64,000 nt of DNA from the NCBI GenBank assembly GCA_020160955.1, contig JAIUOX010000004.1, positions 1-64,000 on the forward strand, in the 5' to 3' direction. The DNA is from Pseudomonadota bacterium. Lineage in GTDB: Bacteria; Pseudomonadota; Alphaproteobacteria; Reyranellales; Reyranellaceae. Both the position numbers and the translations under genes were made by a program. This document shows positions 9,201 to 62,255 of this stretch, piece after piece (position 1 is the first letter of the stretch; the number at the start of each line of letters is the position of its first letter). Under the pieces are notes generated by a model that searched no databases, was not told the origin of the DNA, and saw nothing but the letters and a program-made list of their open reading frames with translations.

Positions 9201-10565
9201 ATGTCCATCCCGGTTCTGATGCCCGCCCTCTCGCCCACCATGACCGAGGGCAAGCTGGCCAAGTGGCACGTCAAGGTCGGCGACGCCGTCAAGGCAGGCC
9301 AGGTGATCTGCGAGATCGAGACCGACAAGGCGACGATGGAAGTCGAGGCGGTCGACGAGGGCACGGTCGCCCAGCTGCTGATCGAGGAGGGCGCCGAGGG
9401 CGTCAAGGTCAACACGCCGATCTGCCTCCTCGCCGGGGACGGCGAGAGCGTGTCGGACGCCGCGAAGTCGGCGCCGGTGCCCGTGCCGGCGCAGGCCTCG
9501 GCCGCCAAGGCCGAGGCGGCTGCGCCCAGGGCCGAACTTCCGCCGGCCACCGCGCCGGCCGCCGAGCCGGAATGGACCGGCAAGACGACGCACATGACGG
9601 TGCGCGAGGCGTTGCGTGACGCGATGGCCGAGGAAATGCGCCGCGACGAGTCGGTGTTCCTGATGGGCGAGGAAGTCGCGCAGTACCAGGGCGCCTACAA
9701 GGTGAGCCAGGGCCTGCTCGAGGAATTTGGCGCGCGGCGCGTGATCGACACGCCGATCACCGAGCACGGCTTCGCCGGGCTGGGTGTCGGCGCGGCGTTC
9801 GGCGGGCTGCGGCCGATCGTCGAGTTCATGACGTTCAACTTCGCCATGCAGGCGATCGATCACATCATCAACTCGGCGGCCAAGACGCACTACATGTCGG
9901 GCGGCCAGATGACCTCGCCGATCGTGTTCCGCGGTCCCAACGGCGCCGCGGCGCGCGTCGGCGCGCAGCACTCGCAGTGCTATGCCAGCTGGTACGCCCA
10001 CGTGCCGGGCCTGCGCGTGCTGTCGCCGTGGAGCGCGGCCGATGCCAAGGGTCTCCTGAAAGCGGCGATCCGCGATCCCAACCCGGTGATCTTCCTCGAG
10101 AACGAGATCCTGTACGGCCAGTCGTTCGACGTGCCGGACGATCCCGACTTCGTGCTGCCGATCGGCCGCGCCAAGATCGAGCGTCCGGGCAAGGACGTCA
10201 CCATCACTGCCTTCTCGATCATGGTCGGCAAGGCGCTGCTCGCGGCCGAGGAACTGGCGAAGATCGGCATCGACGCCGAGGTCATCAACCTGCGCAGCCT
10301 GCGGCCGCTCGATACCGACACCATCGTCGCCTCGGTCAAGAAGACCAACCGGCTGGTGTCGGTCGAGGAGGGCTGGCCGTTCGCCGGCATCGGCGCGGAA
10401 CTGGCGGCGCAGATGATGGATCACGCGTTCGACTGGCTCGATGCCCCGGTCAAGCGGGTGCATGGCGTCGACGTGCCGCTGCCCTACGCGGCCAACCTCG
10501 AGAAGATGGCGCTGCCGCAGTCCGATCACATCGTCGCGGCGGTCCGCGACGTCTGCAATCGCTGA
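9201..10565 (+). CDS. pdhB: Pyruvate dehydrogenase E1 component, beta subunit with N-terminal lipoyl domain
   Basis: 454 residues. The first ~80 are a lipoyl domain with Lys43 in ETDKATMEV, then a Pro/Ala linker, then the transketolase-like beta subunit (from about residue 130: [45 protein letters not shown]). The lipoyl fusion is characteristic of alphaproteobacterial E1-beta. It starts three bases after pdhA. The lipoyl domain is almost identical to that of the E2 gene downstream, suggesting duplication or gene conversion. Confidence 0.97.
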
Positions 10566-10572
10566 GCCTCCC

Positions 10573-11862
10573 ATGTCGATCAACATCCTGATGCCCGCGC
10601 TCTCGCCGACGATGACCGAGGGCAAGCTCGCCAAGTGGCACGTCAAGCCCGGTGACGCCGTCAAGGCGGGCCAGGTGATCTGCGAGATCGAGACCGACAA
10701 GGCGACGATGGAAGTCGAGGCGGTCGACGAGGGCCGGATCGGCCAGATCCTGGTCGAGGAAGGCACCGAGGGCGTGAAGGTGAATGCCGTCATCGCCGTG
10801 CTGCTGGAAGAGGGCGAGAGCGCCTCCGCCGCGCCCGCTCCGGCGCCGGCCGCCAAGCCCGCCGCCGCGCCCGCGCCGGCCGCCAAGGCACCGGCCGCAC
10901 CGCCGGCCGCCGCTCCGGCGCCCGCAGCCAAGCCCGCCCCGGTCGCTGCCGCGACGCCGACCGGCGGTCGCATCTTCGCCTCGCCGCTCGCCAAGCGCAT
11001 CGCCGCCGAGAAGGGTGTCGATCTCGCGACCCTGACGGGCAGCGGCCCGCACGGCCGCATCGTCAAGGCGGATGTCGAGAACGCGCGTCCGGGCGCCGCC
11101 GCACCGAAGCCGGCGGCGGCCGCTGCCCCGCCGCGTCCCGCCGCGGCGTCGGCCCAGCCGGTGTTCGTCGCGCCGGGCGACACGCGCGTGCCGCACAGCT
11201 CGATCCGCAAGGTGATCGCGCGGCGCATGCTCGAGTCCAAGCAGACGGTGCCGCACTTCTACCTGACGGTCGATCTCGAGATCGACGCGCTGCTCGCGGC
11301 GCGCCAGGCGATCAATGCCGTGGCCGAGAAGAAGGGAACCAAGGTCTCGGTCAACGACATGGTGGTCAAGGCCTGCGCCAAGGCGCTGCGCGACCACCCG
11401 GAGTGCAACGCCTCGTGGACCGAGGACGAGATGGTCCAGTACGGCGCCGTCGACATCTCGGTCGCCGTCGCCACCGATCGCGGCCTGATCACGCCGATCG
11501 TGCGCAACGCCGACCTCAAGGGGCTGGGCCAGATCGCCGCCGAGACCAAGGACCTCGCGGCGCGGGCCAAGACGGGCAAGCTGAAGCTCGAGGAATTCCA
11601 GGGCGGCGGCTTCACGATCTCCAACCTCGGCATGTTCGGGGTCCAGAGCTTCGCCGCGATCATCAACCCGCCGCAGTCCATGATCCTGGCCGTCGGCGCG
11701 GGCGAGGAGAGGGCGGTGGTGCGCAAGGGCCAGGTGGTCGCCCGCACCATGATGAGCTGCACGCTGGCGGTCGATCATCGCGTGGTCGACGGCGCGATGG
11801 GGGCGCAGTTCCTCCAGACGCTGCGCGCCTACGTCGAACAACCCGCCTCGATGCTGGTCTAG
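10573..11862 (+). CDS. pdhC: Pyruvate dehydrogenase E2 component (dihydrolipoyllysine acetyltransferase)
   Basis: Core of the complex; transfers the acetyl group from lipoate to CoA. 429 residues from the ATG at 10573, which gives the conserved lipoyl N-terminus [20 protein letters not shown]. Order: lipoyl domain with Lys43, long Ala/Pro linker, peripheral-subunit-binding domain ([20 protein letters not shown]), second Ala/Pro linker, catalytic domain with His402 and Asp406 in DHRVVDG. One lipoyl domain here plus one on E1-beta. Confidence 0.97.
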
Positions 11863-38095: not shown

Positions 38096-38185
38096 GGTTC
38101 TTGTTACCTGCTGAGGGGGCAGTTCAACGACGATACCGAAGTACCTCCAGACCTTGCAATATTTGTGGCAGTCGCGGGCGCCCGC

Positions 38186-39490
38186 TCAGCCTTCGTCGGC
38201 GATCTCGGCCAGCAGCCGGTCGACGAAGCGCGGCGAGTAGCCGAGCAGCGCCAGCTCGTCCGACAGTTCGGCGCGGAACCGTCCCAGCGCCTCGACGAAA
38301 GGCTGGCCGCTGGCCAGCGCCGCCTCGACCAGGCCAGCGGCGCGGGTCTTGCCCATCTCGCCGGCCAGCAGGAACGTCGCGCGCTCGGCCAGCACCGCGC
38401 CATGCGTCGCCTCGAGGTTCCGCCGCATCCGCCCGGCATCGACCGCCAGCCCCGGCGCGATCTCGGCTATGCCGTCGACCGCCGAGCCCAGCGTCTCGAC
38501 CAGCCCGGCCAGCGTCGTCCACTCGGCCTGCCAGCCGCCCAGCGCGCGCTCGTTCTCCTGCGGCATCGCCGCCACGATCGTCGCCGCGAGTTGCGGCGCG
38601 CGGGCGGCGGCGGTCAAAGCCAACCCGGCGCCGACCGGGTTGCGCTTGTGCGGCATGGTCGAGGACTTGCCCCGCCCCGGCCCCGACGGTTCGGCGATCT
38701 CGCCGACCTCGAACTGCATCATCAGGGAAATGTCGCGCGCCGCCTTGGCCAGCGCGCCGACCACCAGCGCGATGTCCTGCGCGAAGGCCGCGACCCGCAC
38801 GCGGTTGGCGAACCACGGCGCGGCCGGCAGCGCGAGCCCGAGGTCGCGGGCCAGCGCGGCCATCACCGGGCCGCCGGCGTCGCCCAGCGCCGACAGCGAG
38901 CCCGAGGCGCCGCCGAACTGCAGGACCTGGGTGTCGGCGAAGCTCTGCGCCAGCCGCCGCCGCGCCCGCTCGAGGTCGGCCGCCCAGCCCGCCACCTTCT
39001 GGCCGAAGGCGATCGGCGTGGCCGGCTGCTGCAGCGTGCGGCCCAGCATCGAGGTGGTGCGATGCTCGCCCGCCAGCGCCGCCAGGGCGGCGACGATGTC
39101 GGAGAGGCCCGCCAGCAAGGGCGGCATCGCATCGCCCAGCTGCAGCACCAGCGCCGTGTCGATCACGTCCTGGCTGGTGGCGCCCCAGTGGACGAAGCCC
39201 GCTGCCTCGGCATCGCGCGCCGCGACCTGCTCGGTCAGCGCCTTCACGACCGCGACCGTCAGCGTCAGCGCCCGCCGCGCCACCGGGACCAGCGCCGCGG
39301 GCTGGTAGAGCGCGGGATCGCAGCACGCCTCGATGGTCGCGACGTGGCGCGCCGGGATCAGGCCGGCGGCGGCCACCGCGCGGGTCAGCGCCGCCTCGAA
39401 GCGCAGCATGTGGCGCAGCGTGGCCGCGTCGGAGAACGCCTCCGCCACCGTCGCCGATCCCGCCAGCGCGTTCACCAGACTGCCCGCCAT
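38186..39490 (-). CDS. 3-carboxy-cis,cis-muconate cycloisomerase-like lyase
   Basis: 434 residues; the ATG at 39,490 follows GGAGGGAG, whereas upstream starts lack it. The fumarase/aspartase superfamily signature is SSTMPHKRNPVGAG, with GFVHWGATSQDVIDTALVLQ near the N-terminus as in PcaB of the protocatechuate pathway. No other pca gene is in the window, so adenylosuccinate-lyase-like relatives remain possible. Last chromosomal gene before the integrated element. Confidence 0.85.
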   Translation of the reverse strand: MAGSLVNALAGSATVAEAFSDAATLRHMLRFEAALTRAVAAAGLIPARHVATIEACCDPALYQPAALVPVARRALTLTVAVVKALTEQVAARDAEAAGFVHWGATSQDVIDTALVLQLGDAMPPLLAGLSDIVAALAALAGEHRTTSMLGRTLQQPATPIAFGQKVAGWAADLERARRRLAQSFADTQVLQFGGASGSLSALGDAGGPVMAALARDLGLALPAAPWFANRVRVAAFAQDIALVVGALAKAARDISLMMQFEVGEIAEPSGPGRGKSSTMPHKRNPVGAGLALTAAARAPQLAATIVAAMPQENERALGGWQAEWTTLAGLVETLGSAVDGIAEIAPGLAVDAGRMRRNLEATHGAVLAERATFLLAGEMGKTRAAGLVEAALASGQPFVEALGRFRAELSDELALLGYSPRFVDRLLAEIADEG

Positions 39491-39548
39491 CGCTCCCTCC
39501 GTTGCCGCCATCGACCTTAGGGGCTGCGACCGGGGATGCAACGGCCCC

Positions 39549-39577
39549 TTCCGCTGGCGCGACGCGCCCGCTAGAAG
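39549..39577 (+). promoter_or_regulatory. Probable native tRNA-Ser promoter, now orphaned
   Basis: TTCCGC (39,549-39,554), 17-base spacer, TAGAAG (39,572-39,577), ending 12 bases before the tRNA 5' half at 39,590. The same geometry occurs upstream of the intact tRNA gene. It would now transcribe a truncated tRNA into the element. Confidence 0.45.
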
Positions 39578-39589
39578 CGGCCTGACAAC

Positions 39590-39628
39590 GGATGGGTGGC
39601 CGAGCGGTTTAAGGCACCGGTCTTGAAA
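39590..39628 (+). repeat. Left attachment-site repeat: 5' half of tRNA-Ser
   Basis: 39 bases identical to the start of the intact tRNA-Ser gene (49,698-49,736), ending with the anticodon and the first three A residues after it. The next base differs (T here, A in the intact gene). Bases before the match also differ (C versus T), so the identity is exactly the tRNA 5' half. Confidence 0.95.
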
Positions 39629-39747
39629 TGTCCCACTGCCTATTCTCAGCAGAACTCAGCAATGCTTTCCCGTACACTCAGATGTGCAACGGCTCTAGTC
39701 CACATGGCCACCAATGCGCTCACAGTATCGCTAGTAGTCTGGATTGC

Positions 39748-39766
39748 GTGACCAGACCGTGACCAA
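39748..39766 (+). repeat. GTGACCA repeats inside left end
   Basis: GTGACCA at 39,748 and GTGACCAA at 39,759, 11 bp apart, about 120 bp inside the left att repeat. Three more copies lie inside the right end. They are candidate integrase arm-binding or excisionase sites. The rest of 39,629-39,782 shows no gene. Confidence 0.5.
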
Positions 39767-39782
39767 CTTTTGGGTGCAGCTT

Positions 39783-40202
39783 CTACTCATCAGAGCTGAC
39801 ATCTCGGCGTAAACGCCGAAGCACTTGGCGCGCTTGCTGTGCCTGATCCTTCTGCTTGACCCTCATTGCTTCTCGGGCGAGCGACTCGATCCGGGTGCGC
39901 CTGCGCCTTTCTTCCGTAATTCCGGTCTTAGGTACCCTCTTCTCTCGCGCCTGCCAGCGCTTCTCGGCGAGTGCGCGTCCTTCCGCAGTCAGTCGGAAGT
40001 GCCAAACGAGATTGATCAGTTGTCGATGGAGCAAGCCCCTCCGCTCCAACTCGAGGCACTTCTTGTTGGTGACCTTGTAAGAAACCATGGACAGAGCGCT
40101 AACCGAAGGGATGCGTTCCGGCGCCACATAGAACTCCAAAAGCAAATTTGGCAGGCTTAGCGGCTTGGCGTCTCTTCGTTCCCAGTCATGAACAGGCACC
40201 AT
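39783..40202 (-). CDS. Small winged-helix-like protein of unknown function
   Basis: 139 residues. The middle part (YKVTNKKCLELERRGLLHRQ followed by WHFRLTAEGRALAEKRW) has the pattern of a winged-helix recognition helix and wing as in MarR/PadR-like regulators. The C-terminus is Lys/Arg-rich. It starts seven bases after the membrane-protein gene on the same strand, so the two probably form an operon. Possible regulator of the neighbouring cargo genes; not a recognised family. Confidence 0.65.
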   Translation of the reverse strand: MVPVHDWERRDAKPLSLPNLLLEFYVAPERIPSVSALSMVSYKVTNKKCLELERRGLLHRQLINLVWHFRLTAEGRALAEKRWQAREKRVPKTGITEERRRRTRIESLAREAMRVKQKDQAQQARQVLRRLRRDVSSDE

Positions 40203-40208
40203 TGGAAA

Positions 40209-40706
40209 TCAGAAGCCGAGCACTGCGCGCCACTGGAGTTCGGGAGAGAAGACAGTTGCTCCCCTCCACAATCCTACGAAGAACATGGCAGCTGACACGA
40301 CCCAGATAACCATTGCCAGGCCTTGAAGCGAGTACCCGGCAACAGAGTGTTCTCGCCGCCGGCGCGTGGCGAGCGTGAAGAAGCATTGACCAAGATATGT
40401 AACCCCCATTCCTAAGACAGCAAGAAATGCGCCGGTTGCGAAAGTGCCGAGTGCAATCGCAAGCTTTCCCGTGTGCCAATCCGTGGCTCGCCCAGACCCA
40501 AGAAAAGCCAAAAGCGCGATAGCGCTGGCACCGTTCAAGAGGAGCATTCCTTTCGACGCCAATGCGCCAAAATCGAGCGTAGCCTTGAAGCTAACGAGAT
40601 GGATCGCCTCTACGGCCTTGTATTGCTCCAAGCGCGCATCGTGCGCGGCTTTCGCGTCAACTAGCGCAGTCTCATAGGCAAGTTCCTGTGGGGTCTGCAC
40701 GGCCAT
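40209..40706 (-). CDS. Predicted membrane protein with N-terminal helix
   Basis: 165 residues. A charged helical N-terminus (AYETALVDAKAAHDARLEQY) is followed by three likely membrane spans: about 52-70 (GMLLLNGASAIALLAFLG), 83-108 (ALGTFATGAFLAVLGMGVTY) and 127-147 (LAMVIWVVSAAMFFVGLW). No known family. It is divergent from the SIR2-like gene with 130 bp between them, and upstream of the winged-helix-like gene. An effector or membrane anchor in a defence module is a guess from context. Confidence 0.7.
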   Translation of the reverse strand: MAVQTPQELAYETALVDAKAAHDARLEQYKAVEAIHLVSFKATLDFGALASKGMLLLNGASAIALLAFLGSGRATDWHTGKLAIALGTFATGAFLAVLGMGVTYLGQCFFTLATRRRREHSVAGYSLQGLAMVIWVVSAAMFFVGLWRGATVFSPELQWRAVLGF

Positions 40707-40836
40707 GCACTAGGATACCAAACGCCGCTGAGCGCACCATGTGGAATTTGTTGCTCAGTTGCGGACCAGTGTGCAGGATTGTCCTCCTAGCCAAATTTTC
40801 CACCATGGGACACATGTCCAGGCGCGAGCGACTGAA

Positions 40837-41868
40837 ATGATCAGAGCTAAGACCTTGTTCGTTGTTGGGGCGGGAGCAAGCGCAGACTTCGGCTTTCCAC
40901 TTGGGACGGCCCTCACAAAGCAAATCGCAAATGCCCTTAATCTGGAAAGCAGCGGCGCTTCTGCCGAAAAGGAACTGCTTCGAGTAGCCATCGAAGTTGC
41001 AAATGGACATCCTGCCTTGCCGCGCAGCGGAGATCTGTTTTTTAGTGCCAGGGAAATGCACGGCGCGTTGGTTACCGCGTCATCAATCGACACGTTCTTG
41101 GATAACCGCTCAAAGAACGCCGACTACGCATTGCTTGGGAAGATGGCAATCGCTTGCTGTCTTATCGAGGCCGAACGCCGCTCCCCTTTGCGCGCATCTA
41201 ATCCACGGGGGTCATTCGATTTGTCGTCGGTCGACGGCAGTTGGATTGCGCGGCTCTTCGACATAATGGCTGCGGGCGTCAAAGAGGATGCGGTTGACGA
41301 GATGTTCCGTAACGTCTCGTTTCTGGTCTTCAACTACGATCGCTGCATTGAGCACTACTTCCAGCATGCACTAGCCAGTCGGTTTGGATTGGGCCTAGAG
41401 CAGGCCGCCAAGATTGTTCGGAATTCCTGCCGGATAATTCATCCTTATGGAACGTTGGGTTCACTAGGAGGCGGCGAATTTCCCATTCCATTTGGCCTAA
41501 AGCTTACTGAGGCAGTGCACGGAACCGGGGACCTTCTCCATCGCATGTCGCAAAACTTGCTGACTTTTTCAGAGAGCCAGAAGACAGAAAGCATTCCGAT
41601 CCGGGAGGCGGTGGCGAAGGCCGCGCGCATAGTGTTCATTGGCTTCGGGTTTCACGAACAGAATGTCGACTTGTTGCGAGTGCCCGTGTCGGACGTAACC
41701 GAGGTGCGAGCCACGGCCTTCAGGCTTTCTCCGAGCAACCAGCAACAAGCCCTCCTACGCATCAGAAACATCTGTGCATCTCGCGCAATAGGAACGCTTG
41801 AGAACCTGTATGGCGATCTTAAGTGCGACGAGTTCATCGAGGCGGAACGGTTCTTCCTGAGCAGCTAG
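40837..41868 (+). CDS. SIR2-like NAD-binding protein, candidate anti-phage NADase
   Basis: 343 residues from the ATG at 40,837 (a GTG 32 codons upstream is unlikely, since similarity starts at KTLFVVGAGAS). NAD-binding GAGAS (11-15) is followed by the SIR2 pocket Asn166/Asp168 in VFNYDR, the candidate catalytic His202 in IIHPYGTLG and GFGFHEQN near residue 272. This arrangement is that of SIR2-domain proteins (as in Thoeris ThsA, DSR and related systems) that deplete NAD during infection. Codons are less GC-rich than the chromosome, indicating transfer. Confidence 0.8.
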   Translation: MIRAKTLFVVGAGASADFGFPLGTALTKQIANALNLESSGASAEKELLRVAIEVANGHPALPRSGDLFFSAREMHGALVTASSIDTFLDNRSKNADYALLGKMAIACCLIEAERRSPLRASNPRGSFDLSSVDGSWIARLFDIMAAGVKEDAVDEMFRNVSFLVFNYDRCIEHYFQHALASRFGLGLEQAAKIVRNSCRIIHPYGTLGSLGGGEFPIPFGLKLTEAVHGTGDLLHRMSQNLLTFSESQKTESIPIREAVAKAARIVFIGFGFHEQNVDLLRVPVSDVTEVRATAFRLSPSNQQQALLRIRNICASRAIGTLENLYGDLKCDEFIEAERFFLSS

Positions 41869-41921
41869 ACTGACGAACGTTCTCCATGGGAACTCGAAGT
41901 CGAGTTTCCATGGACCGTCAC

Positions 41922-43136
41922 CTACTTGTCGACCTCAGCTTGCACTTCGGCGGCGACTGACGGGATCGCGTTAGTCGATGTGTTTGGCGGTGCAATCGCG
42001 TTTGCAAGTGCATCGTCTGAGGCGGCCAAGCCTAGCATCTCGCGGGCATCGTTGGGCGAGATGACGCCACCCGTCCTGAGCTTGGCAATTGCGCTTGCCA
42101 TAGTTTCTGGATCACTGCGAAGCATGGCCCCTACATCGATAGCGAGCCGATAGCGCGGGTCGAGCACCGTCTGCCGAAAGGCGCGCTCTATCTTGGCGAC
42201 CCATGGAAGCAGCGAACGCTGAAACGCGCCTGTAGCCGCCGCGGCGCTAGCGTAGGTGGCGCGGTTGGGATCGCCCAGCAGGAACAGAGGCACTCCGAAG
42301 AGGCGCGATACGTCCTCGACCGAGTACCGCAGCCGCTCAACGATCTGTTGATCCTCGGCGGACAGAAGGGACAGCGGCTTCCATTCTAGGCCCTCCGGGA
42401 GCACGGCGGTCTTGCCCCTACGGCTACCCGCATAGTTTCCATCCCACTCGACTGCCAACCGCTCAGCAGTCTCCTTGGAAATTTTGCCGGGCGCAGTCAG
42501 TACACCCGCGGGCCGGGCTTGATTTACCCCGAACTGGTAGGCCGCGACCTGCGTAGTCAGGGCGAGCTGGATTGCCGTTCCCGCCCTCTGGAGCCTGGAA
42601 ACGCCCAGCAGTGCATTGTCGCCTCGATCCTTGAGCAGCACGAAGTCGTCTCTCAGCAGGGTGCGCCGCTTCCCTGCTCGAGGGGGAAGCGTCTCGATCA
42701 CGTCGAGTTGCAGGCTGCCGTCTGGCCCGGCAAACGGGGTCACTGTCGTCCACGGGATCGTGGTCAGGGACACGAGCTGGCCCCTAGCGTCGGTCGCCAG
42801 CTCGACTGCGCCATTGCCATGCAGCAGGGTGCTGGCGATCCAGTCGGTCATGAGGTCTGACCAAGACTGGTTGGGATTGCAGCCAGTGACGATCAGCCGG
42901 GACAGCGGGTGGTCGCCTACTGCCTTACGGCTGTCGTCAGACATCATCACCGACGCGGGGAGCGAGGCGATGGTCTCCGATACGAGCTGGATGCACGCCA
43001 GCACCGCCGCGATTGCCTGCGCCGTCTGGGGGCTTATGCCGCCCTGACCAGGCCCGAGCGCCCACGCCGCCCCGTCAATGTAGGGCGGCGTCGGCGTGGT
43101 TCGCTGCGGTGCGGCCTTCGGTCGGAAAGGCCACAT
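41922..43136 (-). CDS. Phage portal protein, HK97 family
   Basis: 404 residues; the ATG follows AGGGAG. Typical features are AAVLACIQLVSETIASLP, DHPLSRLI, HGNGAVELATDARG, IPWTTVTPF, LLGVSRLQRAGTAIQ and YSVEDVSRLFGVPLFLLGD. Full length, no frameshift. It would form the dodecameric DNA-entry ring of a capsid. It lies downstream of the capsid gene in the direction of transcription, the reverse of the usual portal-then-capsid order. Confidence 0.93.
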   Translation of the reverse strand: MWPFRPKAAPQRTTPTPPYIDGAAWALGPGQGGISPQTAQAIAAVLACIQLVSETIASLPASVMMSDDSRKAVGDHPLSRLIVTGCNPNQSWSDLMTDWIASTLLHGNGAVELATDARGQLVSLTTIPWTTVTPFAGPDGSLQLDVIETLPPRAGKRRTLLRDDFVLLKDRGDNALLGVSRLQRAGTAIQLALTTQVAAYQFGVNQARPAGVLTAPGKISKETAERLAVEWDGNYAGSRRGKTAVLPEGLEWKPLSLLSAEDQQIVERLRYSVEDVSRLFGVPLFLLGDPNRATYASAAAATGAFQRSLLPWVAKIERAFRQTVLDPRYRLAIDVGAMLRSDPETMASAIAKLRTGGVISPNDAREMLGLAASDDALANAIAPPNTSTNAIPSVAAEVQAEVDK

Positions 43137-43148
43137 GTTGGAGCTCCC

Positions 43149-44372
43149 TCAGGGCGCCCCGACGCCGGTCAAGGTACAGAAGGCCGCCTTTCGGATCAGG
43201 CCCACGTCCAGCCGCATGTAGCCCCGGATCAGGACCTGCGCCTTGCTCAGGGCGTCCGCCCCGACGCGGGTGGCTTCAATCACGATGCCCTCCCGCAGCC
43301 CGAACAAGGCGCCCTCGAGGAAATTGCCCACGATCATATTGCCCGAGGCGATGCCGGTGGTCGCGAGCTGCTGCAGTGCCGCGACGTCGGCAGGCTGGGC
43401 AAGCTTCGTCTTGTCGCCGGTCAAGCCGGTGACGAGCTTCCGCAGGCCGTTCTTTTCGTTCGGGTGCATCACGACGCTGGTTGGCGTCAGGTTCGCCACT
43501 TCGATCTGGTGCATGGCGTCCAGGAGGGCGTCGTAGTCGTCGAGGGCCGCACCGACCGGATTTGTCGGCACGCCTGGAGCACCGAGGATGCCGCGCGGAT
43601 TGTCATGGGTCGCGTCGACCGTACCGTTGCCACTCAGCATGGCTTGATCCATCGCCAGACCGAGCGCGGCAGTGATCGAGGTGACGATCATGTCGGACGC
43701 CATCGGGCTGTCCGCGATCAGCTCCAGCGACGACCGGGCGACTACGCCGACCAGGCGCGCTCGGAGGTCGACAGCCCCGAACGTGACGTCGTTCTCAGGC
43801 AGCGCGGTGTTTTCGGGGCGGAAGGCAGGCGCGACGTCGCCAACGATCTCCGCAATGCGCAGCTGCTGGGTCACCATCGGGAGGGTTCCAGCACCCGCCG
43901 CAATGCAGACGGCCTTCGCCCGCGCCATGTCGAGCCACTGAGACGCCAGCGCGCTCGACACGGCGTAGCCGCCCGAGGCCAGCGCCCCCTCGCCCATCGC
44001 CCGCTTCTCGAAGTCGGCACCCGCCCAATCACCGGAAACGATGCCTCGGAGGGCCTTGGCGATGTTGAGCTGCACCCCGTCCCGTCGGGGATGGCGATCG
44101 GACAGCTTGTCCGCAGCCCGCAGGATCAGGTGCTCGTGACCCTGATCGTCGATGGCCCGTCGCTGCCCCTCCGCGCCACGGAGCAGGTTATCAGCCGCCA
44201 TCTGGCGGTCGATCTGCTCGTCCAGGCTCTTCACCTCGGCCATGGCGGCGTCGAACGCCGTTGCCTCGTCTGCATGGAACAGGCGGTTCTCATCAGCCGC
44301 CTTCTCGGACAGAGCCTGAGCCCGGTCGAGGATGTCTGCGCGCTTCTGCTTCAGTGCATCGGTCAGTCGCAT
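43149..44372 (-). CDS. Phage major capsid protein, HK97 fold
   Basis: 407 residues from the ATG at 44,372, which has AGGGACC upstream; a longer frame to 44,621 is rejected. The first ~100 residues are a coiled-coil delta/scaffold-like region (LTDALKQKRADILDRAQALS and DQIDRQMAADNLL). The shell domain follows (QWLDMARAKAVCI, ENTALPENDVTFGAVDLRAR, SSLELIADSPMASDMI, ALGLAMDQAMLSGNGTVD, GILGAPGVPTN). No separate protease gene adjoins it. The portal gene follows after 12 bp. Confidence 0.93.
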   Translation of the reverse strand: MRLTDALKQKRADILDRAQALSEKAADENRLFHADEATAFDAAMAEVKSLDEQIDRQMAADNLLRGAEGQRRAIDDQGHEHLILRAADKLSDRHPRRDGVQLNIAKALRGIVSGDWAGADFEKRAMGEGALASGGYAVSSALASQWLDMARAKAVCIAAGAGTLPMVTQQLRIAEIVGDVAPAFRPENTALPENDVTFGAVDLRARLVGVVARSSLELIADSPMASDMIVTSITAALGLAMDQAMLSGNGTVDATHDNPRGILGAPGVPTNPVGAALDDYDALLDAMHQIEVANLTPTSVVMHPNEKNGLRKLVTGLTGDKTKLAQPADVAALQQLATTGIASGNMIVGNFLEGALFGLREGIVIEATRVGADALSKAQVLIRGYMRLDVGLIRKAAFCTLTGVGAP

Positions 44373-44694
44373 GGTAGGTCCCTGTGGTGGAGGGCGCTTG
44401 GCCCGTGTCATTGGCGGCGCTTCGGAGCGCCTTCTTGATGGCTGCCATCGGCCCGTCTCGGCCCAGCCGGTCGAGTTCCCGATCCGTCGCACCGAGGGCG
44501 CGCAGGCACCGGAGGATTTCGAGCCGGGTGCTCTGAAAGTGCTCCCACAGCCCGTGGCGCTGCTGCGCGTCAGCCAGAGCGCAAAGGCTCTCCAGCCGGT
44601 GTCGCCAGGCCAGCCGTTCAAGGGCCACCCGCTGGCGCTCCTGCGCCTCAGCCTGCCGCGCCACCAGTTCGGGGGTAGCCACGCGCCTGATCAT
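44293..44694 (-). CDS. Small helical protein overlapping capsid start (uncertain)
   Basis: 133 residues. The first two thirds (ELVARQAEAQERQRVALERL, EILRCLRALGATDRELDRLG) look like a genuine charged helical protein. The last ~27 residues run into the capsid gene in another frame. It occupies the position where many phages have a head protease, but no protease motif is visible. Real gene likely; function unknown. Confidence 0.45.
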   Translation of the reverse strand: MIRRVATPELVARQAEAQERQRVALERLAWRHRLESLCALADAQQRHGLWEHFQSTRLEILRCLRALGATDRELDRLGRDGPMAAIKKALRSAANDTGQAPSTTGTYHATDRCTEAEARRHPRPGSGSVREGG

Positions 44695-45347
44695 CGGGTC
44701 TCAGAGGGCTGTCGGTTGCGGATCATCCGCAGAGCCTAGGCCCCTCCCGCTGTGAGTAAGCTGGCGAACACTGCGAAGGCGTCGTGGGAGCCTGAAATCC
44801 GCTCGTACAGCGCGTCCGGCTCGCCTGAGGCTCTGGTCGTCGCCCTTAGGCAGCGAGCGCACCAGCGAGGCCGAATTCAGCCCCCCTGTGCCCAGTGCAG
44901 TGGGGGACGAAGTTCACGCCTAGCGAACTGCAAATTGCATCGGCGTAACGCAAACCTGCCGCCTTCTTCACTCGACGATGGGCCACGCCGTAAGCATGTT
45001 GCATCTCGATGCAAGACGATACGAGTGACCAGCGTAGGCTCAGCAGGCTGCGCTTCTTGGCAGAGGCGGCCATTGAGGCGCTGTCCGACCAGCGTGCAGA
45101 AGCCAATGCCTGGCAAGGGCCAATTCCGGTCGATGCCAGTGAGGACATGCTGAGGGTTCTCCTCCAGCACTCCATTCCCGTCTTGCGCGCCTCGATACAC
45201 CGGCAGCTCGCAGACCAGATCGAAGTCGCACTCGCACATAGAGCGTAGCGGCCAGAGCCCCCCGCCTCGGGATGTATGGCGGTCCTGTGGAGATCGCGCC
45301 CAAAGCGTTGGCATGTACGGGCGCAATTCACACACGGAGGGGGGGGG
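44695..45347 (+). other. Gene-poor stretch inside the element
   Basis: About 650 bases between the capsid-side genes and the replication-side genes. No convincing leftward gene is present. One rightward frame (45,009-45,248) is listed separately. A run of nine G residues (45,339-45,347) directly follows the stop of the next leftward gene. In a satellite such a gap could hold a packaging signal or late promoter; no motif proves it. Confidence 0.4.
45009..45248 (+). CDS. Possible small protein, opposite strand (uncertain)
   Basis: 79 residues (begins MQDDTSDQRRLSRLRFLAEA). Composition and third-position GC look protein-like, and the sequence is predicted helical. It lies against the direction of the surrounding leftward genes and has no clear ribosome-binding sequence. 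No family recognised. Confidence 0.35.
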   Translation: MQDDTSDQRRLSRLRFLAEAAIEALSDQRAEANAWQGPIPVDASEDMLRVLLQHSIPVLRASIHRQLADQIEVALAHRA

Positions 45348-45638
45348 TCAATATTCTCCGCGAGCACGCCAGCCCACAGTGAGTTCCTCAAGCAGCTTTT
45401 GCGGCAGAAGTCGGCGATGCCCAAACGCCCAACGGTCGATGCGATCCACGCTGACCTGCTCTCCGCTTCCGATGCGCAGATCCCGCCACAGCCGCGCAGC
45501 CAGTTCCCCGTCTGCCAAGTATAGGGTTGTCTCTCCAAACGACAGGCGGACCATGCTGGCCCAGTCGCGCGTTACACTCCCCGCCCTAAAGGGCGTGGGA
45601 GGTAGTGTAACGACGTGCGAGGCTCGGGCGCGTTTCAT
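45348..45638 (-). CDS. Small protein coupled to the RepA-like gene
   Basis: 96 residues. Its ATG overlaps the stop of the RepA-like ATPase gene (ATGA at 45,635-45,638), so it is translationally coupled. No recognised domain; VRLSFGETTLYLADGELAAR and DRIDRWAFGHRRLLPQKLLE look like a compact alpha/beta protein. Codons near its start encode a long RNA/DNA hairpin (45,570-45,612). A nine-G/C run follows its stop. Confidence 0.55.
   Translation of the reverse strand: MKRARASHVVTLPPTPFRAGSVTRDWASMVRLSFGETTLYLADGELAARLWRDLRIGSGEQVSVDRIDRWAFGHRRLLPQKLLEELTVGWRARGEY
45570..45612 (-). repeat. Long GC-rich hairpin within the small coupled gene
   Basis: CGTTACACT (45,570-45,578) pairs with AGTGTAACG (45,604-45,612). 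Inside, CCCCGCCC (45,579-45,586) pairs with GGGCGtGGG (45,591-45,599) around a four-base TAAA loop, with one single-base bulge and one four-base bulge. Such CGCCCTAAAGGGCG hairpins resemble the subterminal palindromes of IS200/IS605-type elements, but no transposase is nearby. It might also be a replication or packaging structure. Confidence 0.5.
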
Positions 45639-46768
45639 GTGCCGTTACGCTTGGGCCGCTTTGAAACGGCTGCCCAAAGATAGCCACCCCTCATTCGAAT
45701 ATGGCCCTTATCCTGCAGCGTCTTTTTGATGCGATGCCACTGAACTCGACGCGACTTTTCGTTGTCGTCGTCGATCACGTGGCAGGTAACGAGCTCTTCC
45801 CGGAACCGCGTTACGCTCACCAGCGGCGCGCTCGGGAAGTATCTGCCCTTAGGTGACGTTATCGGCTCGTCCACAAGGAGGTTTCTAAAGACCTGAAGAG
45901 CGCGTTCCCACAAAGCCATCGTCTTTGGCTTCGGGTTCTCATCCGAGAACTCGACGGCATCGACCAGCAATGTCGTCGCCTGGCGTTCAAGCGCCGGATC
46001 GAACCCCATCTCGACGATCACGAACCGAACGGTAATCGAGCGGCTATCCTCTACGTCCTTGGCCGCCTCAAGGAGCAACGAGCTTTCCAGCTTGTTCTCA
46101 CTCTTCACCTGCAGACCCACAACCATAGCCCCGGGCAGGGAGGAATGGCCGCGCATGCGGTCGCCGTTGTGCGGCTGGTGATGAACGGCAATGGTGAGGC
46201 AGCCGAAGTATTCGCTGATGGCTTCGGCTGCCTCGGTGAAGTTCGCCATGCCCTCACCGTTCTCGTCTTCTCCATGAAGCATACGCGACAGGGTGTCGAT
46301 AATGATCAGCCCCGGTCTACCGTCGGGGAAGGCCCTCTCGACTGTGGCAATCAGCTTCTCGAGGTCGTTCTTCTTGCTCCCCAAGTTGGGGCGAGCCGAG
46401 ATCAAGACCAGCGGGGTGTCATCTGGCACATGCTTGTGCCTGCGATAGGCGGCTATGCGCTTGCGCATACCCGCCGCGCCCTCTCCGGCAACGATAACAA
46501 CGGGCGCCTTCGTGGTCTTCATTCCGCCCCAAGGATGACCAGTCGCAACTGCGACGCCGATGTCGAGCACGATGAAGCTCTTTTTCGACTTCGGCTTGCC
46601 ATAGACAACTGCCAGTCCTTCTGCGGGGAGCAGACCTGCAATCACCCAGCGGTCCTTCTCCGGGGCGTACTCGATCTGCGACAGCAGCTGGAACGGAAAG
46701 GTGGCAAGAGCCTCCTTGCGCCCTTGCTGCGGTGCATCGAGAGCCGCCTTAAGCACGCTGCGCCTCAC
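45635..46768 (-). CDS. RepA-like AAA ATPase (hexameric-helicase fold)
   Basis: 377 residues from a GTG. Domain order: short N-terminal region, ATPase core with Walker A GKPKSKKSF in AEGLAVVYGKPKSKKSFIVL, then VIVAGEGAAGMRKRIAAYRR, Walker B PGLIIIDTLSRM and HHQPHNGDRMRGHSSLPGA, which is the RepA/AAA_25 pattern. The C-terminal ~100 residues resemble a winged helix. Such proteins drive replication of plasmids and phage satellites. It overlaps the upstream gene by 20 bases. Confidence 0.85.
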   Translation of the reverse strand: MRRSVLKAALDAPQQGRKEALATFPFQLLSQIEYAPEKDRWVIAGLLPAEGLAVVYGKPKSKKSFIVLDIGVAVATGHPWGGMKTTKAPVVIVAGEGAAGMRKRIAAYRRHKHVPDDTPLVLISARPNLGSKKNDLEKLIATVERAFPDGRPGLIIIDTLSRMLHGEDENGEGMANFTEAAEAISEYFGCLTIAVHHQPHNGDRMRGHSSLPGAMVVGLQVKSENKLESSLLLEAAKDVEDSRSITVRFVIVEMGFDPALERQATTLLVDAVEFSDENPKPKTMALWERALQVFRNLLVDEPITSPKGRYFPSAPLVSVTRFREELVTCHVIDDDNEKSRRVQWHRIKKTLQDKGHIRMRGGYLWAAVSKRPKRNGT

Positions 46769-47438
46769 CCGAAGCGTGACGGTCTGGCTTACCCACCCTC
46801 AGACGAGGAACTGGAACTGGCGAGAAAAATGCCCGAGCCACCCGCTGCCTGAGATTGTCGCTTTCGCACCAGATTGACCGAACATCGGCCAGCAGCCACG
46901 GGGCGGAGTTCCATGCCAGGACAAGCGCGGACGCAGTGGGCGCCCGCAACCACTTCCACGGCGTCGCGAAGAGGATCAGTGTCCCCTGCTCTTGGCGGGC
47001 TCTGTCGATAGCTGCCGCACCGAGAACAGAAGCGATGCCGAGCCTGGTAGCGGTCGCGGTCGTCTTGAACGACGCGGCCACCAAGTCGACAATCTGACCT
47101 TCCTCACAATATGGCGTGATGAAAGCGAGTTCCCCTTCAGCGTCCGGAGTGTAAAGCCCGCCCGGAAGCCGCCTCACACGGGCGATGCCAAGTTCCCACG
47201 CACGGGGAGACACCCGCAAAAAGCCCCGGACTTCCCGGCCAATTGGACGGCGCGCAAACGCCAGCGCGGCAGCATGCTCCTCCTCTAGAAATTGCCGAAC
47301 GGCCAAACGCGCACGATCGCGAGCAATAGACCTGAGGCCATCGCTCACGAGGTGCGCCACAGCCTCGCCGACTGTCGGGCGAAAGCTTGACCGAAGGTTG
47401 GGGAAGGTAGTTATACTGTCCTCGTCTGAGAGAGACAT
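46749..47438 (-). CDS. Unknown protein upstream of RepA-like ATPase
   Basis: 229 residues. Not recognised. Features: an N-terminal helical part (LRSIARDRARLAVRQFLEEE) and a central region with GELAFITPYCEEGQIVDLVA and GTLILFATPWKWLRAPTASA that could be a primase- or TOPRIM-like fold, by context only. Overlap with the RepA-like gene indicates a joint role in replication. No clear ribosome-binding sequence precedes the ATG; instead a GC-rich hairpin lies 14-45 bases upstream, part of an apparent antisense unit. Confidence 0.7.
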   Translation of the reverse strand: MSLSDEDSITTFPNLRSSFRPTVGEAVAHLVSDGLRSIARDRARLAVRQFLEEEHAAALAFARRPIGREVRGFLRVSPRAWELGIARVRRLPGGLYTPDAEGELAFITPYCEEGQIVDLVAASFKTTATATRLGIASVLGAAAIDRARQEQGTLILFATPWKWLRAPTASALVLAWNSAPWLLADVRSIWCESDNLRQRVARAFFSPVPVPRLRVGKPDRHASGEAQRA

Positions 47439-47489
47439 GACAACGATTACGAAGCGCCCCGGGACGTGCGAACCGGGGCGCTTTTCTTT
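47424..47489 (+). ncRNA. Candidate antisense RNA against the replication gene start
   Basis: A rightward promoter (TTGACC 47,387-47,392; TATACT 47,412-47,417; 19-base spacer) and an intrinsic terminator (47,452-47,489) delimit a transcript of about 65 bases. It covers the start codon and leader of the leftward 229-residue gene. The arrangement is like countertranscript control of replication genes in plasmids. The same stretch also encodes a possible 21-residue peptide (ATG 47,437, stop 47,502) preceded by GAGAGAG, so a leader peptide is an alternative. Confidence 0.45.
47452..47489 (+). terminator. Intrinsic terminator, rightward
   Basis: AAGCGCCCCGG (47,452-47,462) pairs perfectly with CCGGGGCGCTT (47,473-47,483) around a 10-base loop, followed by TTTTCTTT. 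Only the rightward strand has the T-tract, although both adjacent annotated genes are leftward. Confidence 0.85.
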
Positions 47490-47737
47490 CAGGCAGGACT
47501 GATGCGGGGCTGTCCGCCCGGAGGCATCCTGCCGTCAAGGATCGCCTGCGTCGGCGCCCGCAAAATGTGGAAGCGCCTTCCCACTCGGATTGACGGGAAC
47601 ACGCCCTGACGAAGCGCTCGGTACAGCTGTACCCGTCCCCCAGGCCACTGAGCTTCTAGTTCTGCGAATGGCATAAATCGTTCATCTGCCGAGGTTTTTT
47701 GAAGCTGCGGCTGTCGCTTGGATTTGCGCTTGGCCAT
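47489..47737 (-). CDS. Excisionase/AlpA-like small DNA-binding protein
   Basis: 82 residues from the ATG at 47,737, chosen because GGGAG lies ten bases upstream; a longer frame to 47,815 has no such signal. The region EAQWPGGRVQLYRALRQGVF followed by SIRVGRRFHILRA is the winged helix-turn-helix pattern of Xis/AlpA/MerR-like excisionases. Divergent from the ribbon-helix-helix gene. Likely directs excision or early leftward transcription of the element. Confidence 0.75.
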   Translation of the reverse strand: MAKRKSKRQPQLQKTSADERFMPFAELEAQWPGGRVQLYRALRQGVFPSIRVGRRFHILRAPTQAILDGRMPPGGQPRISPA

Positions 47738-47757
47738 TGCTTGTATCTCCCTATAAT
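47730..47757 (+). promoter_or_regulatory. Divergent control region between excisionase-like and RHH genes
   Basis: Rightward: TTGGCC (47,730-47,735), 16-base spacer, consensus TATAAT (47,752-47,757), giving a leader of about 50 bases to the RHH gene. Leftward: TTGCAT (complement of 47,772-47,777) lies upstream of TATAGG for the excisionase-like gene. The overlapping promoters suggest mutual repression. Confidence 0.55.
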
Positions 47758-47814
47758 CAATGCAGTCGATCACATGCAAATGGTGTTCGTCCAGTTGATA
47801 ACGTGGAGTTCGCA

Positions 47815-48399
47815 ATGAAGACCAAGCAACCTCGGCGGGGAGCAGTAACCAAACCTCCGAAACCAGATCGAAAGGCGAACCTCTCGTTCAAAACCACGCC
47901 CATCCTAAAAAGGCGCATTGACGCTGAGGCTGTCCGACACGCGCGAACAATCGCGCAAGAGTGCGAACACCGCCTGGAGCTATCGTTCCATCGACAGGAC
48001 TTGCTGACAGAGACGATGACGATGGCCTTTGGCCGCCAGAGCGCGGCAATCCTTCAATTTCTAGGATACGGTATGCGCCGACTAAGCGGCTTCGGCAGAG
48101 AGGACGGCTTAAGCAAGGACGACACTAGTTGGCTCGAAAATCCCATCGCATTTGCAGGAGTGGAGTTCCTGTTCATGGACGTACTCAGTCTATTCGCGCC
48201 AGTGCATGAGGAGACGCCGGAAATAAACATGGGCAAAGCCGAGCACCGTGCATACGGGGTTCAAGCATGTTTGGAGACCTTTCGTCTTCTGGAGCACTCC
48301 GAAGATGAGCGCTGGAAGCAGCTGCGACAGACCCTTCGCCCACTGCTGAAAAATGCGAAGCGGGAAGTCTATGTGGAAGTGGAGGATGACACCGTATGA
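47815..48399 (+). CDS. Ribbon-helix-helix-type regulator
   Basis: 194 residues from the ATG at 47,815, preceded by TGGAG. The stretch ANLSFKTTPILKRRIDAEAV and ARTIAQECEHRLELSF fits a ribbon-helix-helix (Arc/MetJ-like) DNA-binding motif. The remaining ~130 residues are a helical domain without recognised family. It overlaps the integrase start by four bases (ATGA), so it is co-expressed with integration and may repress the divergent excisionase promoter. Confidence 0.65.
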   Translation: MKTKQPRRGAVTKPPKPDRKANLSFKTTPILKRRIDAEAVRHARTIAQECEHRLELSFHRQDLLTETMTMAFGRQSAAILQFLGYGMRRLSGFGREDGLSKDDTSWLENPIAFAGVEFLFMDVLSLFAPVHEETPEINMGKAEHRAYGVQACLETFRLLEHSEDERWKQLRQTLRPLLKNAKREVYVEVEDDTV

Positions 48400-49568
48400 G
48401 AGGGTCCATTCAGCGCAGCGGCAAGACAAGCTGGCGCATCCGCTTCGACCTCGGAACTGACAAGCAGACCGGCAAGAGGCGGGTCCAATCTGTCGTGGTT
48501 CAGGGCAAGAAGGCCGACGCGCAACGTCGTATGGCAGAGCTACTGGCTGCCAAGGGTAACGGCACATTTGTTGAGGCTTCCAAACTCACAGTAGCCGAGC
48601 ACGTACGGCAGCGCGTGGACCACTGGGAAAAGGCTGGAGAAATCTCTTCGCGGACTGCTGACCGCTACCGCGAGTTGGTCGAGAACCAGATTGTCCCGCA
48701 TCTGGGTAATGTGCGCTTGCAGGGCCTGAGAACTCTCGACGTAGAAGGCTGGCACGCAACGCTGCGCGTCAAGGGACGTAAGGATGGCGGTCCCCTCGCC
48801 CCTCGAACGATCCATCACGCTCATCGCGTGTTGGGCAAGGCACTCCGCGATGGCGCGCGGCACGGCCTTCTCAGCAGGGTGGTAACTGGGCCTGAAGGAC
48901 AACGGGCGCCGAAGGTCGAAACCGAGGAAGTGGTTGTCATTCCGCCCGAGCGCATCCCTGAGGTGATCCAGAAGCTTAAGGGCCGTGCCCTGTACCCGAA
49001 GATCGTCGTTGCGCTCTTCACGGGCGTTCGGCGGGGCGAGTTGCTGGGGCTTCGGTGGAGCGACATCGACCTCAAGGGCAAGGTGCTGCGCGTGCGGCAG
49101 GCCGTCGAGGAGGCCAAGCGGAAAGGAGAAAGCGGCACTGTGCTGCGCCTCAAGACCACCAAGACCAAGGCGGGCCGTCGCGACGTCTCTCTGCCAGATA
49201 TCGTGGTCGAGGCCCTGAGCGAGCATCGCCGCGAGCAACTGGAGCAGCGGATGGCTATGGGCCTGGGCAAGCCGGACGCCGACGACTTGGTGTTCCCTGC
49301 TCTCGAGGGCGGGCCGCAGCGCCCCAGCAACCTGTCTGGTGACTGGAGGGCGGCGGTTCGGTCACTCAAGCTGCCAGACGTGAGCCTGCACGCGCTGCGG
49401 CATACTCATGCCAGCCAGCTCATTGATGCCGGGATCGACGTGGTGAAAATCAGCAAGCGGCTCGGGCATGCCTCACCCCACATCACGCTGATGGTCTATG
49501 CGCACCTGTTCGGTGCTCGTGACATCGTGAGCGCCGAGGCTATCAACGCAGCGTTGATGCGGAGCTAG
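48396..49568 (+). CDS. int: Site-specific tyrosine integrase
   Basis: 390 residues. N-terminal arm-binding region (MRGSIQRSGKTSWRIRFDLG), SAM-like core-binding domain (KLTVAEHVRQRVDHWEKAG and TADRYRELVENQIVPHLG), catalytic domain with Arg212 (TGVRRGELLGLRW), Lys in TKTKAGRRDVSLP, His332 and Arg335 (HALRHTHASQLID), His358 (KRLGHASP) and nucleophile Tyr368 (MVYAHLF). All catalytic residues are intact. Located 130 bp from the right attachment site. Confidence 0.96.
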   Translation: MRGSIQRSGKTSWRIRFDLGTDKQTGKRRVQSVVVQGKKADAQRRMAELLAAKGNGTFVEASKLTVAEHVRQRVDHWEKAGEISSRTADRYRELVENQIVPHLGNVRLQGLRTLDVEGWHATLRVKGRKDGGPLAPRTIHHAHRVLGKALRDGARHGLLSRVVTGPEGQRAPKVETEEVVVIPPERIPEVIQKLKGRALYPKIVVALFTGVRRGELLGLRWSDIDLKGKVLRVRQAVEEAKRKGESGTVLRLKTTKTKAGRRDVSLPDIVVEALSEHRREQLEQRMAMGLGKPDADDLVFPALEGGPQRPSNLSGDWRAAVRSLKLPDVSLHALRHTHASQLIDAGIDVVKISKRLGHASPHITLMVYAHLFGARDIVSAEAINAALMRS

Positions 49569-49582
49569 CTGGAGAACCAACC

Positions 49583-49633
49583 GTGACCAAAGGCGAGCAG
49601 TACGGCTCGTCTCTCGTGACCAAATGTGACCAA
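49583..49633 (+). repeat. Three GTGACCAA repeats inside right end
   Basis: Copies at 49,583-49,590, 49,616-49,623 and 49,626-49,633, in the 130-bp space between int and the tRNA gene. Together with the two left-end copies they flank the element. The 10- and 11-bp spacings place neighbours on the same helix face. Confidence 0.55.
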
Positions 49634-49656
49634 TCCTGCCTGTTGTTCCGTTTTCG

Positions 49657-49685
49657 TTGCTTGCTGGAAATCGCCAAGCTATTGA
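49657..49685 (+). promoter_or_regulatory. Probable element-derived promoter for tRNA-Ser
   Basis: TTGCTT (49,657-49,662), 17-base spacer, TATTGA (49,680-49,685), ending 12 bases before the mature tRNA 5' end. The spacing is identical to the orphaned native promoter at 39,549-39,577. The -10 is only a partial match. Confidence 0.4.
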
Positions 49686-49697
49686 AAACATTAACGT

Positions 49698-49787
49698 GGA
49701 TGGGTGGCCGAGCGGTTTAAGGCACCGGTCTTGAAAACCGGCGTGGGTGCAAGCTCACCGTGGGTTCGAATCCCACCCCATCCGCCA
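49698..49787 (+). tRNA. tRNA-Ser (anticodon UGA)
   Basis: 90 bases including CCA. Acceptor GGATGGG pairs with CCCATCC before G-CCA; the anticodon arm reads CCGGTCTTGAAAACCGG with TGA; a long variable arm (serine type) and TTCGAAT T-loop are present. The first 39 bases are the right att repeat, supplied by or shared with the element; the 3' half is chromosomal. Confidence 0.97.
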
Positions 49788-50294: not shown

Positions 50295-51010
50295 CCTCGC
50301 GAAGGGGTCGGCGCTCGCTCACCGGACCGGAGGCGCACCTCCGACGACACCAGGCGCGCCAGCAGCGTCGCCGGGTAGAGCTGGCCGATGATCGCCTCGA
50401 TGTTCGAGAAGCCGCGGATCAGCGGATCGACGGGCGTGAAGTCGCCGTAGCCGACCGTCGTCAGGGTCACGAAGCTGAAGTACACGACCTCGGCCGGCAG
50501 CGAGGAATGCAGCGCCAGCGTCATGCCCTTCACGCCCTCCACCGCGAACGACGCCGCGACCGCGTAGACCGAGGCAAAGAACACGCCGATCGTCAGGTAG
50601 AGCAGGATCGCGCCGACGACGCGATGGTAGGTGATCGGCCCCGGCGCGTAGACCGCCCGCACGACGATCCAGAGGATCGCGGCCGACATCAGGATCCAGG
50701 CGCCGGCGCGGATGCGCACGATCAGCAGCTGGTCGCCGCCCTGCACCTGGACCAGGAAGGCCGCGACCACCAGGCAGAGGAACAGCAGCAGCAATCCCGC
50801 CGACACGAGGCTGCGCGCCAGCACCAGCAACCCGACCGCCAGGGTCACCACCAGGACGACGTTGATCCCCTTGATGACGGCATAGGGCTGGGCTTCCAGC
50901 GGCGAGGTGATGAACAGGTGAACCACCACGATGACGGTGAGACCCGTCAGGAGATGGTCGCGCCACCGGGCGTTGGCGCGTTCGAGCAGCGTGGCAAGGC
51001 GGTTGATCAT
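50291..51010 (-). CDS. Potassium-channel-like membrane protein
   Basis: 239 residues. Several N-terminal hydrophobic segments (residues about 20-150), then a pore with the selectivity filter TLTTVGYGDFTPVDPLIRG and a final hydrophobic helix. No separate S4-like charge pattern or RCK domain is evident, so it is a simple ion-channel (Ion_trans_2) type. A truncated copy of its pore region lies at 53,239-53,409. Confidence 0.88.
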   Translation of the reverse strand: MINRLATLLERANARWRDHLLTGLTVIVVVHLFITSPLEAQPYAVIKGINVVLVVTLAVGLLVLARSLVSAGLLLLFLCLVVAAFLVQVQGGDQLLIVRIRAGAWILMSAAILWIVVRAVYAPGPITYHRVVGAILLYLTIGVFFASVYAVAASFAVEGVKGMTLALHSSLPAEVVYFSFVTLTTVGYGDFTPVDPLIRGFSNIEAIIGQLYPATLLARLVSSEVRLRSGERAPTPSRG

Positions 51011-53238: not shown

Positions 53239-53409
53239 TCACCGTTCTGGCGAGGACCACCCGACCCGCATTTCCGACGACATCAGCCGCGCCAGCGGGG
53301 GCGCCGGATAGAGTTGGCCGACGATCGTCTCGATGGTCGAAAGGCCGCGGATCAACGGATCGATCGGCGTGGAATCGCCGTAGCCGACGGTCGTGAGCGT
53401 CACGGATCT
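53239..53409 (-). pseudogene. Truncated duplicate of the potassium-channel pore region
   Basis: The frame encodes VTLTTVGYGDSTPIDPLIRG and then STIETIVGQLYPAPPLARLM, matching the C-terminal pore region of the protein at 50,291-51,010 with few substitutions. All membrane segments before the pore are missing, and upstream residues in the 80-residue frame are unrelated. A remnant of a gene duplication; not expected to make a channel. Confidence 0.85.
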
Positions 53410-53575
53410 GAACAGGCCCCTCACCCTGTTCAGGACGAGCCCTCGATCAAGGAAATGTCTGTCCCTGCCAATGCGCGGCATCGCGAGGCCGTCATTCTCT
53501 GGACGAGACCGGGCGAGCGTTCCGAGAGCGCTCGCGACCGCCCACAGCCGGACCGGAGATGGAGGACATTCTCAA

Positions 53576-62159: not shown

Positions 62160-62255
62160 TGGCGGAAGAGAGCGGGAGTCGAACCCACCCAGGACCGGCT
62201 AACGGCCCTCTCTGGCTTTGAAGGCCAGCCGCCCCACCGGGAGCGCTTCTCTTCC
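62160..62255 (-). tRNA. selC: Selenocysteine tRNA (anticodon UCA)
   Basis: 96 bases including CCA, leftward. An eight-pair acceptor stem (GGAAGAGA with TCTCTTCC), a long variable arm and the UCA anticodon (complement of 62,219-62,221) identify tRNA-Sec. It lies 33 bp from the selB stop. It decodes UGA in selenoprotein messages, in line with the formate dehydrogenase helpers nearby. Confidence 0.97.

Follow-up and report, generated by a model that had tools for sequence, protein, structure and literature searches.

A phage-like element of about 10.1 kb has very probably entered the only tRNA-Ser(UGA) gene of the assembly by integrase-driven recombination at the anticodon-loop region, replacing both the promoter and the 5' half of the tRNA. 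In the window, the 64-kb stretch of DNA analysed here, ARAGORN predicts tRNA-Ser(TGA) at 49698-49787 (+), and positions 1 to 39 of this tRNA (49698-49736) are found again at 39590-39628 with 39/39 identical bases (Table 1). The repeat stops past the anticodon loop (CTTGAAA) and both flanks of the copies differ, which bears out the sequence-only reading that the exact 5' half of the tRNA had been duplicated. An exact 39-bp repeat within 64 kb is far beyond chance. Genomes do contain short tRNA fragments, so the copy at 39590 was also considered as a chance duplication or a relic without any tie to integration, but the exact identity ending past the anticodon loop, the integrase between the copies, the GTGACCAA sites at both ends and two related elements with the same layout (in genomes G032 and G155) leave this reading with practically no weight, and we reject it.

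The arrangement is that of an island as defined in Islander: the intact tRNA has an end-aligned fragment pointing the same way, and the two enclose a tyrosine integrase and are about 10.1 kb apart, within the 2-200 kb range. It belongs to the reversed kind of island, since the displaced piece, found upstream of the tRNA, is its 5' part. The GC content of the element is about 0.55-0.68, against 0.65-0.76 in the flanks.

Table 1. Coordinates in the window of the element, its attachment cores, recognised genes, candidate integrase sites and predicted promoters.
Feature	Positions	Strand	Evidence
Displaced host upstream region, weak -35/-10, TTCCGC-17-TAGAAG-12	39549..39589	+	hexamers 39549-39554, 39572-39577
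Displaced 5' half of tRNA-Ser(UGA), attL core	39590..39628	+	39/39 match to 49698-49736
Phage-like integrated element, ~10.1 kb	39629..49697	.	39-bp repeats as bounds, composition, gene content
Candidate arm-type integrase sites, left end, GTGACCAG..GTGACCAA	39747..39766	+	GTGACCAA clustering at att cores
Phage portal protein	41922..43136	-	Pfam PF04860 E=1.4e-72
HK97-type major capsid protein	43149..44621	-	Pfam PF05065 E=7.3e-28
AAA ATPase / phage primase-helicase-like protein	45635..46768	-	PF13481 E=2e-34; phrog_906
ORF adjoining the 5' side of int and overlapping it	47737..48399	+	weak ribbon-helix-helix match
Tyrosine integrase (int), 390 aa, intact, pointing at the tRNA	48396..49568	+	PF00589 E=7.9e-23; phrog_1 E=1.4e-64
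Candidate arm-type sites, right end, GTGACCAA at 49583, 49616, 49626	49583..49633	+	GTGACCAA clustering at att cores
Element-borne predicted promoter, TTGCTT-17-TATTGA, 12 bp to tRNA	49657..49685	+	hexamers 49657-49662, 49680-49685
5' half of working tRNA-Ser(UGA), element-supplied, attR core	49698..49736	+	repeat and ARAGORN
3' part of tRNA-Ser(UGA), host-derived	49737..49787	+	ARAGORN; beyond duplicated core

The genes recognised in the element are restricted to portal, capsid, AAA ATPase and integrase; the terminase, tail and lysis genes of a complete temperate phage were not recognised in it. The portal and capsid genes (41922-44621) in an element of 10 kb suggest a satellite-like element or a prophage remnant. 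Also inside the element, a SIR2-like protein at 40741-41868 (weak PADLOC SIR2 and Pfam SIR2_2 matches) is possible anti-phage defence cargo. The integrase gene ends 129 bp before the intact tRNA and probably forms one operon with the ORF that overlaps it, whose best family match (PF23807, E=0.028) falls below the cut-off; a promoter-like TTGGCC-16-TATAAT lies upstream of this operon at 47730-47757. The motif GTGACCAA occurs 4 times in the 64 kb, where about one copy is expected, and each copy lies no more than about 140 bp from one of the two att cores. The cores of related elements are also flanked by similar GTGACC(AA) or GGTGCCAA pairs. Searched with the element integrase, viral contigs gave no match, phage and plasmid records gave only 27-37% identity among the matches listed, and named genomes gave one MAG contig (PLYQ01000028.1), with an integrase identity that agrees with genome G064. 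Elsewhere in the window we observed an exact direct repeat of at least 58 bp outside the element (9297-9354 and 10669-10726, 1.37 kb apart), a partial duplicate near an ion-channel-like gene (50326-50479 and 53259-53412, 82% identical) and a tRNA-Sec on the minus strand (62160-62255).

The side from which the host DNA was displaced is indicated by synteny with 21 relative loci that carry tRNA-Ser(UGA) without the element. In 15 of them dac, rlpA and usually mltB are upstream of the tRNA, as near as 100-130 bp. In the window dac-rlpA-mltB are found to the left of the displaced 5' half, that is, they have stayed with the fragment, and for this reason we take the left flank as host and 49570-49697 as element. 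A pcaB-like gene (38186-39541) lies between mltB and the left copy; it adjoins this tRNA in the window genome only and is elsewhere in most relatives. Searching 38180-39628 in 65 genomes returned no exact empty site for the locus, and the genes downstream of the tRNA are common to none of the relatives examined. With pcaB uniquely placed and the downstream genes unshared, the locus has no base-exact empty site and its polarity is read solely from the left flank.

The reverse polarity, in which the left flank would be foreign and 49570-49697 native, could draw on the unique position of pcaB beside the left copy and on the native promoters of genomes G029 and G020, which are partly like the right end of the window element. 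We consider it very improbable and reject it. Besides the conserved upstream neighbours on the left flank, the integrase, the arm-like sites and the low GC are all between the repeats, and the related elements of G032 and G155 are arranged as in the polarity proposed here. In none of the relatives examined is 49570-49697 present over its length upstream of the tRNA; its presence there would have spoken against the sequence-only reading. G029 and G020 share with it only about 45-50 bp of promoter-region similarity, which fits a captured promoter better than a native origin of this segment. The working tRNA thus has element DNA upstream of it, as had been proposed, both by this synteny and by the match to native promoters described below, while the use of that DNA as a promoter is predicted.

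That reading had also pointed to a -35/-10 pair with equal spacing at both copies of the 5' half. The hexamers, the 17-bp spacers and the 12-bp gaps are there as described, but the two pairs are unequally convincing. We trained a two-block motif on 19 non-redundant native upstream regions of tRNA-Ser(UGA) from the same genus, obtaining a consensus of about TTTGTTGC, 16 bp, AAGTA. The right ends of the elements score 13.8 bits in the window, 17.3 in G064 and 11.9 in G032, with 0 of 1000 shuffles as good in each case, and 11.7 bits (p=0.005) in G155. The displaced left copies reach 0.1 bits in the window (p=0.23), 2.9 in G032 (p=0.06) and 3.2 in G155 (p=0.17). The right ends of the window, G064 and G032 are within the native range and the displaced left copies are not; since the left pair is weak by the native motif, its matching spacing may be partly coincidence. 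A generic sigma-70 matrix is uninformative here and does not single out the right-end promoter (left p=0.02, right p=0.44 in the window, both within the native range).

The right ends of the window and G064 elements have TTCCG.TTTCGTTGC and TATTGAA in common at equal spacing to the tRNA, with a different spacer sequence. In addition, an in-register alignment of the window right end to the promoter native to G029 scores 40, where the best of 300 shuffles reaches 34, and the G032 right end scores 32 against the native promoter of G012 (99th percentile of the shuffles 25, maximum 42). From these alignments we favour the capture of a host promoter by the element. The likeness could also be convergence, because the -35/-10 motif is shared.

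An alternative source of transcription is the integrase operon itself: the tRNA would be expressed mainly by read-through from the promoter near 47730-47757, and the hexamers at 49657-49685 would be incidental. The integrase gene points at the tRNA and ends close to it, the operon has its own promoter-like sequence, a search for a plus-strand terminator-like site before the tRNA found none, the gap from int to the start codon is only about 20-45 bp at related insertions in protein genes, and read-through has been proposed for archaeal pTN3-like elements. Nevertheless, the -35/-10 blocks and their spacing are kept between the window and G064 while the spacer differs, G064 has another gene between int and the tRNA, and the native promoter motif fits the right ends of the elements. 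We regard read-through as the main source of the tRNA as unlikely, and prefer transcription from the element-borne promoter next to the tRNA.

Related elements are found at tRNA-Ser genes of other genomes. The closest integrase (63% identical) is in G064, where the contig ends inside the 5' end of the tRNA with the same promoter before it. In G032, a decayed relic of 2.6 kb occupies the same tRNA, with a broken integrase between the 5'-half copies; the displaced half has lost 4 nt from its start together with the native promoter, and the element-side copy is whole. In G032 the second 5'-half copy is followed by a 113-bp segment and a complete but divergent tRNA-Ser(UGA) (L031, 17317-17519), 84% identical to that of the window, although the DNA downstream matches G019, a genome with the usual tRNA, at 94.5% identity. 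It seems that the whole tRNA was replaced in G032. In G155, from another family of the class, an integrase 42% identical to that of the window lies about 75 bp upstream of tRNA-Ser(CGA), whose 5' half is repeated over 49 bp at the ends of an element of 21.8 kb. Judged by their sequences, the elements of G064, G032 and G155 are arranged like that of the window.

Within the genus, the integrase clade is discrete, with matches at E<1e-20 in 9 of 65 genomes (the window genome, G064, G032 and six more). In a quick tree, the window and G064 are placed together with G155 as neighbour, next to a pair formed by G006 and G082. Several members are inserted in protein genes, which we named by reading the sequence and not by family search. 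In G006, the core ATGGGGCTGCCCG starts at the start codon of a helicase-like gene and its copies are 17.5 kb apart; the joined flanks of this site are contiguous in about 45 of the 65 genomes, and the 13-bp duplication recurs at this site in G082. In G087 the start codon of a reductase-like gene falls inside the core CATGAAACCCTACG, whose copies are 18.4 kb apart; G078 has the corresponding empty site uninterrupted (92%). G078 itself has int just upstream of a HAD hydrolase gene whose native upstream region is 17.4 kb off. The same HAD hydrolase gene is used in G024, where the far end of the element was not found since the contig ends first. Around the integrase of G030 we resolved no att repeats. 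Three of the protein-gene sites are confirmed by empty sites in relatives, and in all those described (G006, G082, G087, G078 and G024) int closely precedes the host gene, pointing the same way, and the native promoter is displaced. We lean, with some reserve, towards a clade whose speciality is the 5' end of host genes generally (tRNA-Ser 5' halves and start-codon cores), with int always just upstream, host genes brought under upstream DNA from the element, and repeated capture of host promoters.

Insertion at the 5' side has precedents. Of the 3,919 islands in Islander, 159 (about 4%) carry a 5' fragment and the other 3,760 a 3' fragment (PMC4383910); for islands with a 5' tDNA fragment, PMC6563490 cites Zhao and Williams 2002. 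As in the window, the integrase island lies in them between the intact tRNA and a 5' fragment that is displaced upstream and keeps the orientation of the tRNA, with the crossover at the anticodon region and the 5' part of the tRNA coming from the element; what differs here is that the element promoter was set against native promoters and that relatives of the integrase are also at protein start codons. Archaeal pTN3-like integrases use the 5' half of a tRNA as attB, with expression from the integrase promoter, a use seldom encountered in bacteria according to the same archaeal review (PMC8371274). The attB is of the same kind here, and the rebuilt tRNA would likewise be expressed from element DNA, but pTN3-like integration splits the integrase gene and occurs in another domain of life, whereas the integrase of the window element is whole and beside the tRNA. 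The islands at dusA (PMC4482086; IMEVchUSA3, PMC8409611) and SXT/R391 at prfC (PMC2791158, PMC8409611) insert at the 5' end and supply a new promoter, as lacZ fusions showed for dusA. They resemble the window element in entering a host gene at its 5' end and in bringing a promoter, which in our case is predicted from a motif match. On the other hand, they have other integrases and their targets are protein genes that gain new N-terminal coding sequence, while the target in the window is a tRNA and its relatives use a short start-codon core that leaves the protein essentially unchanged. Given these precedents (Islander, pTN3, dusA, SXT/prfC), the window element belongs to a known, uncommon kind, and the clade-wide habit of using 5' ends is more interesting than 5'-side insertion itself. 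In a limited literature search we met no account of a single integrase clade that targets start codons as well as the 5' halves of tRNA genes.

We propose that the attP of the element carries, beside int, the 5' half of the tRNA and a host-like tRNA promoter, and that the tyrosine integrase would recombine it with the anticodon-loop region of tRNA-Ser(UGA). Because attP brings promoter and 5' half, their joining to the host 3' half would give a complete tRNA, and the host promoter and host 5' half would be left as a fragment about 10 kb away. In the integrated state, the tRNA would be transcribed from 49657-49685, perhaps helped by read-through from int. Excision, if the element can still perform it, would restore the host promoter.

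The assembly (87% complete) has four tRNA-Ser genes, one each for UGA (in the window), CGA, GGA and GCU, and thus no further serine tRNA reading UCA. At this completeness, the assembly may still miss a second tRNA-Ser(UGA). By the decoding rules a UCA codon needs a UGA anticodon; as the sole UGA gene of the assembly, tRNA-Ser(UGA) is probably essential. The suggestion that the host may depend on the element for its supply of this tRNA is supported by the sole gene, but it has to be narrowed to the integrated state, since excision would restore the host upstream region.

Insertion at the 5' side puts a host gene, here the only UCA reader found, under element-borne upstream DNA. This would make imprecise deletion costly, in a way that clean excision is not, and host expression could be altered whenever an element enters or leaves. 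A clade acting at both tRNA and protein genes would provide natural promoter-swap experiments, with the empty sites present in relatives.
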